DNA of 64,000 bases, from assembly GCA_037783545.1 (NCBI GenBank), contig JBBELK010000671.1, forward strand, positions 186,001-250,000, given 5' to 3'. Positions 10,001 to 46,000 of this stretch are shown here, one piece after another. This DNA comes from Henricia sp. BOLD:AAB3569 (lineage: Eukaryota > Echinodermata > Asteroidea > Spinulosida > Echinasteridae). Under the pieces are notes generated by a model that worked only from the letters and a program-made list of their open reading frames with translations, was not told the DNA's origin and made no database searches. The stretch's first letter is position 1; every line of letters starts with the position of its first letter. The position numbers were made by a program, and so were the translations under genes.

Positions 10001-13000
10001 ATGAGCACTTTCTTAAAGTATGACTCATAATCATTCATTATCAATTGGAAAGAGAAATATTGTTTCCCCTTTTTATATTTTTCAACCATAACAAAATTAT
10101 CACTTTTTTGGGTTGACAAAATTCCGTTAACTTTTGGGTGTTCAGCGTTACCTCACACACATAAACGAAAGTTGGGCAATTCTCGTTAAGCTACATGTAT
10201 GGGAGATCAATCTAGGTCCATGCTTCAAAGAAATATGCAAATAGATTTCCAATATACCTGTACAAAACTGCAACTTCTCAAAGTGCTATTAAGCTATTTG
10301 GGCTATGTTAAAAAAACTAGAGCCAATGCAATATTTAATAGGCGAAACTTAAAAAGGTAGCTCAACTTTTTCAGCTTTTGCTACGCATGCGCAAAACCGT
10401 GACACACCCCTTTAAAGGCACAGGCTCGTCAGCAATGCGCGCCCGCCAAATGTGTGCCACGCAATACGCAGCTCCATAGCAAAGGCATGGAGCTGCGTGT
10501 TTCGAGCACGAATTTGGCAGGCGCGCATTGCTGACGAGCCTGTGCCTTTAAGTGCATCATCAAATTTGAATGTCCGGTTTAAGTTTTTTTTTGCATTTGG
10601 TTCTCCGCCGCTAAACATGCTAAAAGGGAGGACATGTATGTACATGTATTTGGTGCCAATACTTCTTTGTAGTAAATTCAAAAAGGGGAACTACAACATA
10701 TTTTAATTATTCCTTGGCTTCTGTGGTTTACATTAATACATACATGTATATAATTTGCAAGGTTTTTTGTTCTCTTCCCAGTGGCGGATCCAGCCTCATT
10801 AAAATACAGGAATACAATGGATTTTAGGGGGTCCGACCCCCTGAAATCCATTGTATTCCTGTATTTTAATGAGGCTGGATCCGCCACCTCTTCCAGTACA
10901 TATTGCTGCTGTAAGAGGGTCTAGTTGGAATAATAAAAGTCAACTTTCCAACTAGTTATTTGTAAAAAAAAAAAAAAACAAAGCTAATTTATTTGCCTTA
11001 CCTTTCAGTTGTGACTGTCGGATATCTATAAAATTGGAATGTGAAATATGCTGTTCTTGGCAAACTGGAAGAGAAGGACTGGTCAAACTGAAGCACTCTG
11101 GAATAAAACACATCAAATTAACTTTAAAAAGTATGTGTACACACGAAATGCACAAACAGTACATGTACTTTTCTGTAGCTGTATGATGCATTTGTTCTCT
11201 TGTTATAAATGTGGAAACTTGTATGTATAGTCTGGTTCCCAGACCAAAAGATTCCGACTATTCTATGATGATCTTTAGGTCGGGCAGTCGTCAGTCAGCT
11301 CTATTGTGGGGTACCGTGGCCGAGTGGTTAGGGCCATTGACTCGCAATCATGGGTGAAAACTTGGGGTTGCGGGTTCGAATCCGGCTGCGGTACCTGTGT
11401 CCTTGGGCAAGGCACTCAACCACACTTACTCTATCCTTCGGAAGGGATGTAAAGTCGTTGGTCTAGTGCGTTAGGTAATGGTAACGCACTCTAAAGATCC
11501 CAGAGCATTCTTTCGTTAAGAGCAAGGGGATTCCCCGGTGTCTCTGGCCATTTCTAATTCTAATTCTTCATGGGTTTCCTCACGCTTACGAGTGACAGTG
11601 CAATGAGCACTATTGAGGAATCCTTGGTATGAATACCAGAAAGAAATAATAATAATAATAATAAAACAGGAGGATTGCCTCCCGTTTCCCAACGTTTCTG
11701 GAGTTACCCAAATGCATGTCCAGACGTTATTGTTAAATGTCGGGTACGATTCCTCATTGTTTCAAAAATTTGAATGGCCGCCGCACACCGCCACATGTTT
11801 GATGCAGACAAGGTTTGAATTTGATTTTTGGTTAGATTACATTTTTATTGGCCAGATATGGAATTACCCATGTTTCAAATGGTTGTTGGCCAATTGTTTT
11901 GGCCGCCGGTCCTCATTCATTCTTGTATGTAGAATATGTGGAGCAGGAACCAGTCTAGTGTATGTACTGTAAAAGAGCTGAAACTTTCGGTAGGAATTAA
12001 GGTGGTTTACATGTATTATGAAGAACAAAAACCTAATCAGATTTTTTGAAAGCATAAACATTGTTTCTAGTCAGCATAACATGACAAAATTGATTAAATT
12101 ACATCAAAATGACTCATGTGTATGTTTGCTATTAAGCTTAACAGCCGCCTAACTTCAAGGATCTGCGTGTATTTCCTCAGGGTATTGTAACTGCGCTGGC
12201 CCAAATGTCCAAAAACTTCGCCAGTTTGTCGTTGCTCCACGAGCGCCCGCGAACTTCGTTTGCCATCTTTTCACACGAAGACAACTCGACTCGGCTACTT
12301 CTCTTCACGACGAAATAATGTCAACTTATGCTATGTCGGAAATCGTTGAATGACACTCCGACATCCTTGATATAACAACTAAAAACTAAGCTGTATGATA
12401 ATGACAAAGTGTCGCTAGATAGTTGCAGAAAGTAGAGAAGTTGCAGAAAGTAGAGGAAATACAGAAACACTTTTTTTCAACGTGTGAAGTTTGTATCGGA
12501 CACGCAAAAGAGATTGCTGAATGCAGGATACCAATTACGTTTGTAGTACGTTGTGTTTTCGTAACGGACACCAGCGATCGAGATTCTCAGCTTTGCATCA
12601 CATGAGTCGCGTCGGGGTATCATGCATTTTGTCCAGGCATATATGCCTGCAATGCATGGAACCAGTGGATACCCAGCTGTGTGCGTGTATATGTACTACG
12701 TGTACACGTGTACATAATACGAGCGCGGGCTCCCCTGGAATTTTCGCGTGTCCTTGATGGTGATACCGTGGCAGTCATTTGTACATTTCTCTCCATGTGT
12801 GAGCAAAAGTACGCCTATCCAATTGGTCAAACATTTGACCAATAGAAAACGAGGTCAAAGGTCACCAACTTAATTTGTGTAATGCTTGACCATACCCAAC
12901 CATAATACAATGTTAAGATGGTTGAGAACCAGTCTAGGGATATACACTGTATCTCTGGTGCCCTGACTCCAACATTTAACAAGTGAGTACCGGTATGTAT

Positions 13001-16000
13001 ACCAGCCTGAACCAGACTTTTTCAACTCCATGCTGGTATGAAAGTGTTGCAAGGGCAGGAAATCCAAATGTGGTGATATTTCTCATCTGAAATCAGCTTT
13101 ATCGGCCCCCTTTTTACTTTACTGAGGTAATACTTGCAAAAACTGAACAAAACTTCAATAATTAATAGTTTATTTTATGGATATTTGCACACAGAGCATA
13201 AGTATTGGATCCATTTGTTTCTTGTGTCTTTTTTGTGTCATGCTTGGCCTTGTACATGTACTTGCATTGCAGCATTGTTCATCATGTTGACATGAACCAC
13301 AGTATATTGTTCATTGTAGGACACTAGCATAGATTTATAAAGTCTTAAATAATTATTTTACCTATAAATATCACTACATGTAAGTATCAGTATATTTATA
13401 TCAGGAAGTGCAAATTTGACATAAAAAGTAAGCAGTTACATATGTAGTTTAGCTTAAATTTAGCAGGAAAAATTAGATACCGGGGGTACTGTGATATCAG
13501 GATATTACTATTATTAGCCAGTCCTTGGTTTTGTGTACTGATCTTCTCATAACACCTATCTGATTTATGCCTAAATTAATTAAGTAGGAGATGAGTTTTA
13601 TTTTTAGTAATGCATTCCTTTCAGCTGCTCAATGGCTAGCACATGAAGAATATTGGGGCTTGCATGATACATGTACCGAGTGGCACAAGTAATGCTGTAA
13701 CCGAACATACGAACCGAACGGGATTTTACGGAACTTGGCACTTCCGAACCAACCGGACCGAACCGAACATTTCACTCAGTTCGGCTGTTCAGGAGTGTTT
13801 CACATCTTACATATTTTAGCTGTAAATGTAAAAGGCAGCTATCATGGCTTCCAAACTGTCAAAAACCCACTCGAATTCGAAATTACTTCTTATGCTTGCA
13901 AAAGCGCTTCGTGTTTAACTGTCGAACGCCATACATGTATGCACTGTACAAAGCAATTTTTGTGCTAAATCAGATCCGACATTTTGAGCCTGGCGCTGGC
14001 GCCAACTGTACCAACATGCATGACTCCGTACCGACATGACTTCACAATCGATATCTACACGGACGTCGCTCGATCGGTGCCGATCAAATATTGTATTGGC
14101 TCCATCGCCGCAATGTGCCAAAGCCATAGAGTTACCACGCAGTATGCATACTGCACGATATGCTGATAAACTGTCGATTAATCGGAATGGTTTGATTGAT
14201 AATGCCCTCTAGCGGCGTGGTATACATTTTGCATTGTGAAAATGGTGTATCGGGACAGAATTACCAAACTTTAGCTGAACCGAACCGAACCCGAACTTGC
14301 GGACTTCGTTATAGCATTAGGCACAAGCAATAGCTAAATTGAAAGCTCTGGTTAATATGTATGTATGACAGCAGGTTTAATTCCATATCGATCCAGCCAC
14401 TAAAGTTTTATCTTGTATAGACTATTGTAAGTATGTAAAAGTGCAAGTTTGATGACAAAAACACAAAAGCTTTGAATTTTTCTGAGTTGTCCCTGCAGTA
14501 CATGTAACTATATTAGCTTGCAAAGTTTCAAAAATCAAGCTTGGGGCAAGCTTTCTGGCGAGCAGGTTACAAGCTTGCGGCAAGCTTGCGGCAAGCTTGC
14601 GGCAAGCTTGTGGCAAGCTTAAGTTTGCAGAGAGCTTGCAGAGAGCTTGCAGTGAGCTTGCAGTGAGCTTGCAGGGTTTCAATTATGCAAATTAGCTTGC
14701 CGGCAAGCTTGCTTATAAATGTGTCGGCAAGCTTGCGGCAAGCTAAACTAATTTGCATAATTGAAACCCTGCAAGCTCTCTGCAAGCTCACTGCAAGCTC
14801 ACTGCAAGCTCTCTGCAAGCTCTCTGCAAGCTTGCCGGCAAGCTAATGCCGCAAGCTTGCCGGCAAGCTTGCCGCAAGCTTTCCAATATTTCTGTAAGGG
14901 TAGGGACTGCCGGAGTGAATGAATTCGATACAAATGTGGACAAATGTTTAGTTTTACAGAAAAATGTACAAATAACATGTTGCTGATCTATCTAAAACCT
15001 GTAAAAAAAAATATGCATAATCACAGAGAACTTCCTTCAGAAAAACAAAATCTTATAACAAAGTGGTAAAGTTGCCTGTTGCAATATCAACCCTAAATAA
15101 ATAAATTAACCTACATAATGTTGATTTTCAGTGGATAGTAAATACAATGCAACTGCTATTGGGGTTATGAACAAAGCAAGGCATATTGTTTTTTTGGCCC
15201 TGCAGTTGAATGTTGATAATAATTTTTGTTTAACTAAATAACTTCAACAAGAACAAACAGTAATAAAGATTGCTCACTTCTTACCTTGAAAAAGCCAAAA
15301 ATTGGATTACTATCTCATTACACTGCAAGGGGTCAGTGTTTTCCTGTTGCATATTGATGAGGACATGATCTGTAGGATGAATGACCTCTGCCACTTCACC
15401 TTGCCTGTCCAGAATCTCTGGAAACCCTGCTTGGTATAGGTGTGCAAATGCGACCCGACTCAGACCTGCAGGTCCACTGGAAAAATAGCAATAATATTGA
15501 TGTCATAACTTTCCATATGAATTGTACGTGGGGGTCTTTCTATAAATTAGGGGTCCAATGTTGGTGTCCCCCGTTACATTTTACATCTTGTTTTTATAAA
15601 TTCAGGACACATTCTTTAAATACTTTCCATCTCAAAGAGTGAGTACATAAAGTAAAATTCATACAAAATGGTTTAAAAGCCAATTTAATGATTTTTGTAT
15701 GAAAAATAACACATATCAGGTGTAACGGGGGACACCAAATGTCACACTTTTGGACCCCTAATTTATAGAAAGACCCGTATACTAAGCATGATTTGGCTTA
15801 CATGTGGGCAATTCCAGCGTCACGGACATTACATTTCACAATTTATATTTTTGTGTTACTTTATAAGAGCTCATTTCATATCCATGGATGTGTAAAATTT
15901 GAAATAATCCACAGTTATTACAAAGCCGTCATCCTGGACAGTGTGCATCACATGTAGGAATTTGAGACAGTTTCTATACATCATTTGTTGGATATCATAA

Positions 16001-43000: not shown

Positions 43001-46000
43001 TTATAACTGCATGTGCGCACATGGACTCGCCAGCACAGTATACTGTATACTGTAAAAGCTGAAATATTCGCGGTGGTTTTATTTTCGCGCATTTCGCGCA
43101 CCAGACAGAGCCCGCGAAAATATTGTTTGCAACAATTGTGGCGATCCCTCAAACAAAACATAATTTCCATCCGCGAAAATAACAACTCGCGAAAATGTCA
43201 GTGATGTTAAAATGCGCGAAAATATCTGTACGCGAAAATATTGGCTTTTACAGTAGTATACGTACATTGACAGTGTGCAATGCACGCAATGGATATCAGT
43301 ATGTACATGTACATGTATGTGTGATGACTGCTGTATGCCCTACCGGAAAAATCAGTCATCATTTGGTCATCTTTAGGTGATTTGGGCATCATGGAGGGAT
43401 TTGGGCATCATTTAGTCATCACAGGTATCAAAGAGTCATCAAAAGGCATCAGAAAACATTGTTTTGCCATCAAAAGGCATCAAAGTGTCATCCAAAGGCA
43501 TCATTTGGTCATCAAAGGCCATCCAAAACTGGCACAGTGCCCTCTATTGAGTCTATGTACTTCTGATCAATAGTCTGGTTTTGTGGTACTTAAGCCGTGA
43601 ATGATTATGGCCGGGATACAGACATACTACGGTACTGTATGTGTGCAAATCATGTACCGTATTTTCCTGCGGATAAGACGCTCGGCGGACAAGACGCAGG
43701 ACCCTAAAATGACCAAAAAAAATTCAAACGTCAGCAGACAAGGCGCACCCCCGCATAAGGCGCAGGTTTAACCGCACACAGAAGAACACCAGGCGCCACC
43801 CGGTGTCGGTACATTGACACAAAGACGTCATTTTGTTGCCTTTTGGAGCGTTTTTCGAAGCATGAATGAAACCGTAACCACATGGGTGTGTAGAGCCATG
43901 CAGAAAAAACCCAACGTAAATTGATACCGACCTTCATCCATCCATTCAGCCAACGCTGTCCGTTGTTAATAATATGAAGTCCGTCCCAATCAGCGGCCAG
44001 AAACGATGGTCCATGCACTGTCTGAAGAAATTGCAACACGAACCCAGGCCCTCCTAGCCCGAGCATCCGACGTCCCACAACGAGGATCCTTGCTGATACA
44101 GACAGGTAACCAGTCTAAGTCCCCCCGAGCCAGTAGATGTTGCGCCCTCTACCGGTGACTAATACCAAAACTAGCGTCGTCTTTGTAATAATCCCGTCCC
44201 GGGAAGACGTAACAAAATGTTTCATTATATATATAGTTGTGGAAGTTTTTGTAATGTTTTTTTGTTGTTGAATTATTTCCTATTATTCCAAACCTATAAT
44301 TTGTTAATCTCGTTCATAAGATTTTGTTTTTAAGGATCAATTTTTATTTTACAAATGAAATAAACGAAACGGACACATGATCCATTTGTTTTTCTCGTTT
44401 TGTTTTGTTGGTCCCGTAACACCCATGAAGAATGATCATGAGACAATACTGGCAGTCATCCCAGGTGGGATGACCAAGAAGCTGCAGCCCCTAAGCGTGA
44501 ACCGCGTCTTCAAGAACCACATCCGGGTAGAGTGGGAGGACTGGATGTCTGAGGGCATTCACACCTACACTGAGACTGGACGGATGAGACGGGCAACCTT
44601 CACTGATGTTTGTGGCTGGGTTTTGCGGGCATGGGCTGCCGTAAAACCCTCCACAATCATCAATGGATTCAAGAAGGCCAAGATCATCCCAGGCCCAGAC
44701 ATTGCGGAGGAGGAGGCACCTGATCTTCGGGCGGCAGACCTCGACGACGAGCTGCTAGCTATGTTCAACAGCGACAGCGAGGACGAGGAGTTTGACGGGT
44801 TCCCCGACGTCTGAACCAACAATCCAGATCAACAAAAACCAACCGGCTCTTTTCAGAGCCACCACATCATCAAAAAAGAGATCGATATCATGTCGTAATG
44901 TCTGAATAAAGTAACAAATAAGAAGCTAAAAAGGTCAACAAAATTTCCCAAATAATAAAAGAGTACCAACAAGTCCAAGTTCCCAAAGCACTTATTAATC
45001 ACAAATGTAAAAAAATAATTATCCCATCCTTAAATAATACGTTAAGCCTAATCAATACTTCGGATATATTCTCTCCAATAACAACCCTCAAATTCACCAC
45101 ACAATAGAGGTTGGGTTAATGCATTGACTGTCGAATGCATCATCGGAACGAATACTCGGCCACACAGAAAAACGTTTGAACGGCGCCGACGTCTGTTATG
45201 GTTGGACCGAAAGCACCGTCATAAGGGGGGGCTAGACGCATTGCGGCATTGCTGGAATGAAAGCACGGTCATGGGGGATCAACACGTTGCGGCATTGTTG
45301 GAATGAAAGGACGGTCTGGGGGATTGCGGCATTGTTCGAACGAAATACGGTCTCAGTGTCTGAATAGTTCAGCCTTGTTTAACGTTTGACCGCATTATTG
45401 AGTAAGGATTCTTCACACAAATACCGTTGATTTGAACTGGACAAGAAGGTATTTATTATTTCACGCAGTGATCATCAACAAAAAAATCAATCGTCAGCAG
45501 ACAAGGCGCACCGAAAGATAAGACGCACCGACGTTTTGGGGGTCTAAAAAGTCGGATAAGACGCGTCTTATCCGCAGGAAAATACGGTACATGTACATCT
45601 AGGCTGTACATGCATGACATACATGTAGGGCATATCCGGACATCGTTGATCAGTAAGTGAGACAATTTTCCACGTTTGTTTGGAAGCGCTGACTACATGT
45701 ACATGTACATGTACCGGTACCGGTATTGGACCTACCACAAGTTGGTCTGTGCCAGGACCAAGATTAAAGTTTATCTCTCTAATGCATGCCGCAAAACACC
45801 AAAAACAAAGCGTTTAAATGTCTCATCACTTGCTCTAACAGACACACGACATCAGAGACTTTAACAAGTCTTCCAAGAGAACCTATACAAACCACTCCTG
45901 GGCATCCTGAAGATCAATGGCACACCTTCAAAACTGCAGTTACTAATATCTGCACAATTAAGAGGTCCTTGGTTTTTAAAAAGGTAGAAACAAGGACTGG

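Follow-up and report, generated by a model that had tools for sequence, protein, structure and literature searches.

A pogo-like DNA transposon with histone-type stem-loops behind its two divergent genes

The window, which is the whole stretch of 64,000 nucleotides analysed here (G000:C671:186001-250000, from a 740.7-Mb eukaryote assembly), contains a shortened copy of a pogo-like DNA transposon whose transposase tail is followed by a histone-type 3' stem-loop, hereafter SL1. In fuller copies of the element there is also a gene on the opposite strand, and this second gene is followed by a histone-type stem-loop of its own (SL2). This anatomy recurs in two subfamilies and, less surely, in a third, and the stems differ between copies by compensatory changes. 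SL1 is quite probably a functional 3' end signal, and it would belong to a pogo-like lineage that has come under the replication-dependent histone programme of its host at both levels. S-phase-limited expression is the best reading of these sequences, and the element resembles a divergent H2A-H2B gene pair in which the histones have been replaced.

The copy in the window

The element spans positions 43657-45587 of the window, with perfect inverted termini and TA on both flanks; the perfect inverted repeat, which is 31 nt long, extends slightly beyond the termini (43651-43681 / 45563-45593). The features of this copy, called C671, are collected in Table 1. The transposase tail is the one gene remnant recognised in it; this tail is 94-95% identical to those of C254, C46 and C412 and 65% identical to that of C329. 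The N-terminus of the transposase is absent, and the third catalytic aspartate is missing as well (LQPLSVN, versus LQPLDISVN in other copies). In an earlier, sequence-only reading of this DNA the transposase frame was placed at 44377-44814; its end is supported by the DDE_1 match, but its start is not, homology beginning at about 44425.

When the copies are compared with the window by BLAST, positions 1-663 of C46 correspond to window positions 43769-44421, after which C46 has the 829 nt that have no collinear counterpart in the window. Within these 829 nt lie SL2 (at 927), the frame of the second gene and the beginning of the transposase's last exon. The window stretch 44322-44400 resembles positions 845-923 of C46 (86%), which adjoin SL2 in that copy, and the window has no stem there. 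The window copy is a dead, shortened derivative with an internal deletion, which has kept just the transposase tail and SL1 and cannot give an active transposase. The left 136 nt of the element are 97-100% identical at at least 40 places, the window included (40 scored out of 87 candidates), which indicates that copies were mobilised recently.

Table 1. Features of the element copy in the window
Feature	Position	Strand	Remarks
Left terminal inverted repeat	43657-43681	+	TA target duplication 43655-43656; 31-nt perfect repeat
5' region of the element	43682-44421	.	In fuller copies, the zone past the 3' end of the second gene
Internal-deletion junction	44422-44425	.	C46 has 829 nt here (664-1492), with no collinear counterpart in the window
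pogo-like DDE transposase, C-terminal part	44426-44814	+	Stop TGA 44812-44814; Pfam DDE_1, E 1.5e-8
SL1, histone-type 3' stem-loop GGCTCTTTTCAGAGCC	44845-44860	+	Rfam RF00032, 37.4 bits; compensatory changes among copies
ACCACA, predicted cleavage zone 4-5 nt past the stem	44861-44866	+	Same six bases in many host histone genes
Histone downstream element (HDE) TCAAAAAAGAGA, presumed U7 site	44870-44881	+	Identical in host H2A, H2B, H3 and H4 genes
AATAAA past the HDE, possible back-up poly(A) signal	44905-44910	+	Conserved in 5/5 family-A copies
Second AATAAA	44954-44959	+	Sequence reading
Right terminal inverted repeat	45563-45587	-	TA target duplication 45588-45589

The stem of SL1 starts thirty nucleotides past the transposase stop, and the order from there is GGCTCTTTTCAGAGCC-ACCACA-TCA-TCAAAAAAGAGA. 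The Rfam Histone3 model, whose gathering cut-off is 34 bits, recognises SL1 with an E-value of 2.5e-7. When the window was scanned on both strands for stems of six pairs that carry the fixed histone positions, two matches emerged, of which SL1 alone has a TTTC loop. The histone-type stem-loop with ACCA and a purine-rich downstream element, which the sequence-only reading had described 30 nt past the stop, is therefore confirmed; its purine-rich element is indeed like the histone signal, the HDE core matching that of host histone genes.

The window also contains two long inverted repeats of another kind. The first (10778-10890) is a long hairpin that matches MIR172 below the cut-off in Rfam and looks like a palindromic short element, not like a plant microRNA. 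The second (15528-15782), for which MIR8007 is below the cut-off, is probably another palindromic element.

Copies in the genome

Queried with 127 aa of the window protein, the genome yielded 16 matches, which fall into 14 loci if the window is counted. SL1 lies past the transposase tail in 11 of these 14 loci, nine of which have six perfect pairs and two have one mispair. In subfamily A, the copies C671, C46, C412 and C291 share an identical perfect stem, from which C254 departs by one base; a deletion in C291 took the stop and left the stem. Subfamily B, whose protein is about 65% identical to that of subfamily A, has AGCCCTTTTCAGGGCT at the same place in five loci (C329 at two places, C459, C429 and C495), and the stem of C52 has one mispair. 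Of the remaining loci, one C4 copy has a half-deleted stem, where HDE-like sequence remains, and no SL1 was seen in the other C4 copy or in C290, both of which have damaged transposase C-termini. The place of the stem-loop pointed out in the sequence-only reading is thus conserved in relatives, 30-31 nt past the stop both in family A and in the diverged subfamily, with a stem that has changed in a compensatory manner.

Indeed, the stems read GGCTCT/AGAGCC in A and AGCCCT/AGGGCT in B, and both differences preserve pairing. Between the A copy C254 and the B copy C329, identity amounts to 64% in the last exon and 57% from stop to stem, rises to 26/30 (87%) from ACCA to the HDE, is 70% over the 30 nt that follow the HDE, and then falls to 41% over 100 nt (a stretch that begins 76 nt after the stem start) and 38% over 150 nt. 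The compensatory stem changes, and the 87% identity from ACCA to the HDE compared with about 40% further downstream, suggest selection on the pairing and on the processing signal. The HDE core of subfamily B is the same as that of the host histone genes.

The B stem pattern occurs at 39 places in the genome and the reversed control at none. Of these, 30 were read: 17 have B flanks and 13 belong to a third repeat, class C. The view that class C is an unrelated stem-loop repeat was dropped, since remnants of both genes and its own stem-loops are present. On the + strand upstream of the stem-loop, a remnant resembles by eye the C-terminus of the second gene; the other strand has a weak remnant of the transposase C-terminus (E 0.037 at best), accompanied on that strand by a perfect AGCTCTTTTCAGAGCT in four of these 13 loci. 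Several of these repeats have a TIR-like end, and the HDE past SL1 is poor. Class C looks like a third, non-autonomous subfamily, a deletion derivative that would have kept both 3' ends; its assignment is less certain than those of A and B.

The stems of the element have the histone-type six pairs, four-base loop, G-C at pair 2 and closing U-A pair, and not all variants reach the Rfam threshold. Histone3 exceeds its cut-off only for SL1 of the A copies C671, C46, C412 and C291 and for one C-type SL2 (L082, 35.3 bits). Lower scores are obtained for SL1 of B (33.4 and 32.5 bits), SL1 of C254 (27.6 bits) and one B SL2 (C429, 30.0 bits), and the model does not list, at E up to 1, SL2 of the A copies (CGTCC form) or SL1 of subfamily C.

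C329 keeps a transposase frame of 412 aa in two exons, one with an N-terminal HTH_Tnp_Tc5 domain (E 3.3e-6) and one with DDE_1 (E 3e-19), separated by a GT-AG intron of 221 nt; an AG acceptor is present at the same place in C254 and C46. The three acidic residues of the DDE/D domain are all there (NMDE, LVLDSM, LQPLD). As for the ends of the element, both have the perfect inverted repeat and TA in C291, and TA follows the right end in C46, C254 and C412, in which the right ends alone were compared. The termini of the B copies were looked for and not found. Viral contigs gave no relative of the N-terminal 235 aa of the transposase.

Other sequences resemble the transposase more distantly. C666, which also matches the transposase from before residue 21, has 26% identity, an 816-aa frame and no second-gene neighbour, and was taken for another transposon family. 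Dozens of places (e.g., C168:759582, C298:5012936) have frames, many of about 156 aa, whose identity to the transposase is 44-77% across some 30-75 residues that surround the first catalytic aspartate; they may represent an exon of another, related transposon family.

Covariation of the stems

Covariation was measured on 26 distinct stem variants from the SL1 and SL2 loci given by the protein search, the pattern searches and the scans; two SL2 places for which there were no letters and one extra match in L082 (at 1776), which lies outside the ends of both genes, were left out. In this set 94.9% of the cells pair, compared with a mean of 87.2 in shuffled sets, none of which (0/500) reached 94.9%. 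Double-sided changes occur in 14 cells in register (shuffled mean 4.1, 0/500), against 0 to 2 in slid registers, and the covariation score of 0.326 (shuffled mean 0.172) was likewise reached in 0/500. Two of the five measures do not stand out from the shuffles: how many pairs show a double change (3, reached in 235/500) and how many further pair types occur (7, reached in 69/500). The variants found by pattern are limited to two mismatches, so that the count leans towards the pattern; the stems at protein-search loci are free of this bias, and the shuffles ignore how the variants are related.

The second gene

The protein of the second gene in the A copies matches HIRAN, and no other Pfam family at E up to 10, with 24.4 bits for a cut-off of 24.7 (E 2.6e-5). 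A phmmer comparison with the PDB matched no HIRAN chain. The gene probably encodes a HIRAN-domain protein. The genome contains 11 matches to it, of which eight are strong (over 120 bits) and three are weak and interrupted by stops.

SL2 is found 23-73 nt downstream and on the same strand in all eight strong matches; at the three decayed ones (38-39% identity), no SL2 was detected with up to two mismatches. In the both-strand scan SL2 reads CGTCCTTTTCAGGACG-ACCAAACGAGAAAAGAGA in the A copies C46 and C291, GAGAAAAAAGA in C412 and AGTCCTTTTCAGGACT in the B copy at C429. The sequence downstream of SL2 in A, GAGAAAAGAGA, is purine-rich and differs from the host HDE. The SL2 pattern was found at 16 places in the genome, half of which have no second-gene match, and its reversed form at none. 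Among the strong matches, five have the form CGTCC/GGACG (C46, C412, C291, C151, C175) and three the form AGTCC/GGACT (C329, C515, C636); C207, one of the places that have no second-gene match, reads GGTCC/GGACC. Pair 1 alone is therefore seen as C-G, A-U and G-C.

The region between the genes

The N-terminus of the transposase (a match from residue 21 or before) is present at five loci, in C329, C515, C290 (twice) and C1202. In all five, the second gene is head-to-head with the transposase, with 320-456 nt between the matched stretches.

At both loci that were read, the intergenic DNA resembles an H2B promoter. Upstream of the transposase ATG, C329 has CCAAT at -176 and -129 and the octamer ATTTGCAT at -160 and -73, and C290 has CCAAT at -110 and -81 and ATTTGCAT at -54. 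In the four host H2A-H2B regions that were measured, two CCAAT boxes are followed by [AG]TTTGCAT at -71 to -95 from the H2B ATG. The order of the motifs in C290 is the same as in the host, and C329 has one octamer extra. The promoter stretches, which begin at a conserved block close to where the second gene starts, are 325 nt (C329) and 245 nt (C290) long. In 20,000 dinucleotide shuffles of each, two octamers were never obtained for C329, while for C290 the fraction of shuffles with one octamer was 0.0046 and that with one octamer plus two CCAAT was 0.00035; the two loci are related, so that these observations are not independent. Apart from the motifs, the C329 and C290 promoters do not clearly resemble those of the host. 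In mammalian H2B promoters ATTTGCAT is the Oct-1 site, which serves S-phase transcription (PMC5706932).

Histone genes of the host

Histone genes of the host were found on contigs other than that of the window. The 3' end of H2A is for example AAACCAACC-GGCTCTTTTCAGAGCC-ACCACAAC-TTCAAAAAAGAGATTGATTT, and near relatives of it are present in H2B, H3 and H4. Among the histone genes that were read, the bases after the stem are ACCACA in many and ACAACA or ACACAA in others. A DNA search with the 3' region of the family-A transposon gave matches of 89-96% over about 47-61 nt to the 3' ends of host H2A, H2B, H3 and H4, and one match beside H2B with 79% over 108 nt. This likeness fits a capture of the signal without proving it, as sequences under a shared constraint would resemble each other too; the signal may come from a histone gene or from convergence.

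The host has matches to SLBP (PF15247), four at two loci. No U7 snRNA was found by pattern or by the Rfam model, which was silent on the control too and is hence uninformative.

Two arrays of histone stem-loops are present on one contig of the genome. In the first (G000:C62:63-334 kb, L007-L020), a tandem array whose units are spaced by about 2.43 kb, the 14 loci read have divergent H2A/H2B matches with stem-loops. Further along (G000:C62:850-891 kb, L055-L066), histone stem-loops recur every 225-460 bp, with a full H3 match in 3/12 loci read and no histone match in most; this second array is apparently a satellite made of H3 3' ends.

Discussion

The autonomous form of the element would have the order TIR, SL2, second gene (leftward), shared H2B-like promoter, first transposase exon, intron, second exon (rightward), SL1 and TIR. 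The sequence-only reading was right about the transposase and its stem-loop but gave an incomplete picture of the system, as the divergent second gene with its own stem-loop and the H2B-like intergenic DNA had been missed. Transcription would start from a bidirectional octamer/CCAAT promoter, as in the H2A-H2B pairs of the host, and 3' end formation would rely on SLBP and the U7 snRNP in place of polyadenylation. The transposase mRNA, spliced and ending in the stem-loop, would build up in S phase and be lost rapidly when S phase ends. The benefit for the element would be to transpose while DNA is being replicated.

The HIRAN domain of HLTF binds fork DNA and recruits that protein to stalled replication forks (PMC4666394). 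The HIRAN protein of the element might act at the DNA ends of replication forks, and such a partner would fit a replication-linked mode, in so far as the borderline domain match is correct. The likeness to HLTF consists of this weak Pfam match; unlike HLTF, the second-gene protein is short (125 aa compared), has no other Pfam domain and matches no solved HIRAN chain. In the fullest version of the proposal, the H2B-like promoter and the non-polyadenylated SLBP/U7 ends would confine the pogo transposase and its fork-binding HIRAN partner to S phase, and excision and reinsertion around passing forks could raise the copy number. We consider the chances of this version to be about even. The AATAAA past the HDE in family A, the intron, the borderline HIRAN score and the sub-threshold stems all count against the histone-programme explanation. 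So do the failure to find U7 snRNA, the decayed second-gene matches that lack SL2, the SL2 places that have no second-gene match, the two covariation measures that do not exceed the shuffles, the poor HDE of class C and a promoter read at two related loci.

The stem-loop could serve the translation or stability of the mRNA via SLBP, or be one of two alternative 3' ends, instead of confining expression to S phase. The AATAAA beside the HDE would permit such dual ends, and nematode histone genes carry AATAAA in addition to the hairpin (PMC1924863). A polyadenylated form may indeed be made in family A. Against this, the H2B-like promoter provides a second link to S phase, and the explanation appears unlikely.

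Another explanation is that the stem-loops are inert: the ends of a histone gene pair would have been captured once and carried along, and the mRNAs would be terminated at normal poly(A) sites, for example the AATAAA at 44905. This hexamer starts 23 nt past the HDE core and is kept in all five family-A copies, and the presence of an intron in the transposase gene points in the same direction. The same place reads AATAAC in most of family B (14/17 copies, the others being AGTAAC in two and AATAAA in one), however, and a signal is found behind both genes. The compensatory stem changes and the conservation between ACCA and the HDE, far above that of the sequence further downstream, are not expected either of an inert passenger, and we regard this explanation as quite improbable.

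Finally, the idea that the stem-loop arose by chance, or entered the window copy with a separately inserted piece of a histone 3' end (the event that the sequence-only reading had named as fatal to its interpretation), can practically be discarded in spite of the likeness of family A to the host 3' ends, given the presence of SL1 past the transposase tail at the other loci and in a diverged subfamily, the zero matches of the reversed patterns, and the lack of such a stem in five 3' segments (701-1601 nt) of other DDE_1 transposons, chosen out of 51 DDE_1 matches (the frame end is ambiguous in one, L098).

The element, read as a transposon under histone-type control, shares with the pogo superfamily (IS630-Tc1-mariner) the DDE_1 catalytic domain, the N-terminal Tc5-type HTH, the TIRs and the TA target duplication; the divergent second gene, the histone-type stem-loops behind both genes and the octamer/CCAAT region between them are its own. 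Excerpts of two pogo papers (PMC7386202, PMC7325037) contain no mention of HIRAN or of a histone 3' end.

With the H2A-H2B pair of the host it has in common divergent genes, CCAAT boxes and the ATTTGCAT octamer between them, and a stem-loop with a purine-rich HDE behind each. The element differs from the pair in that it encodes no histone, is bounded by TIRs and is mobile. Replication-dependent histone genes are also intronless, whereas the transposase gene has its 221-nt intron.

Other transposons tie transposition to DNA replication as well: the Drosophila pogo transposase binds PCNA, and Ac/Ds or Tn10 are replication-timed. There the link runs through protein contact or DNA methylation and is not known to involve gene control of the histone type. 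Searches of the open-access literature, judged by title, gave no paper on a transposon linked in this way to the histone stem-loop, SLBP or HIRAN; the sequence-only reading, likewise, knew of no described pogo element of such an arrangement.

Histone-type 3' ends are generally regarded as almost exclusive to replication-dependent histone genes. If the proposed reading is correct, the element would be a transposon that carries this whole package for two genes that are not histones, the first such mobile element known to us. It would make directly testable the old question of how DNA transposons couple transposition to replication. The element would also supply natural target stems of SLBP with variants at pair 1 (A-U, C-G), which may be of use in studies of SLBP specificity.
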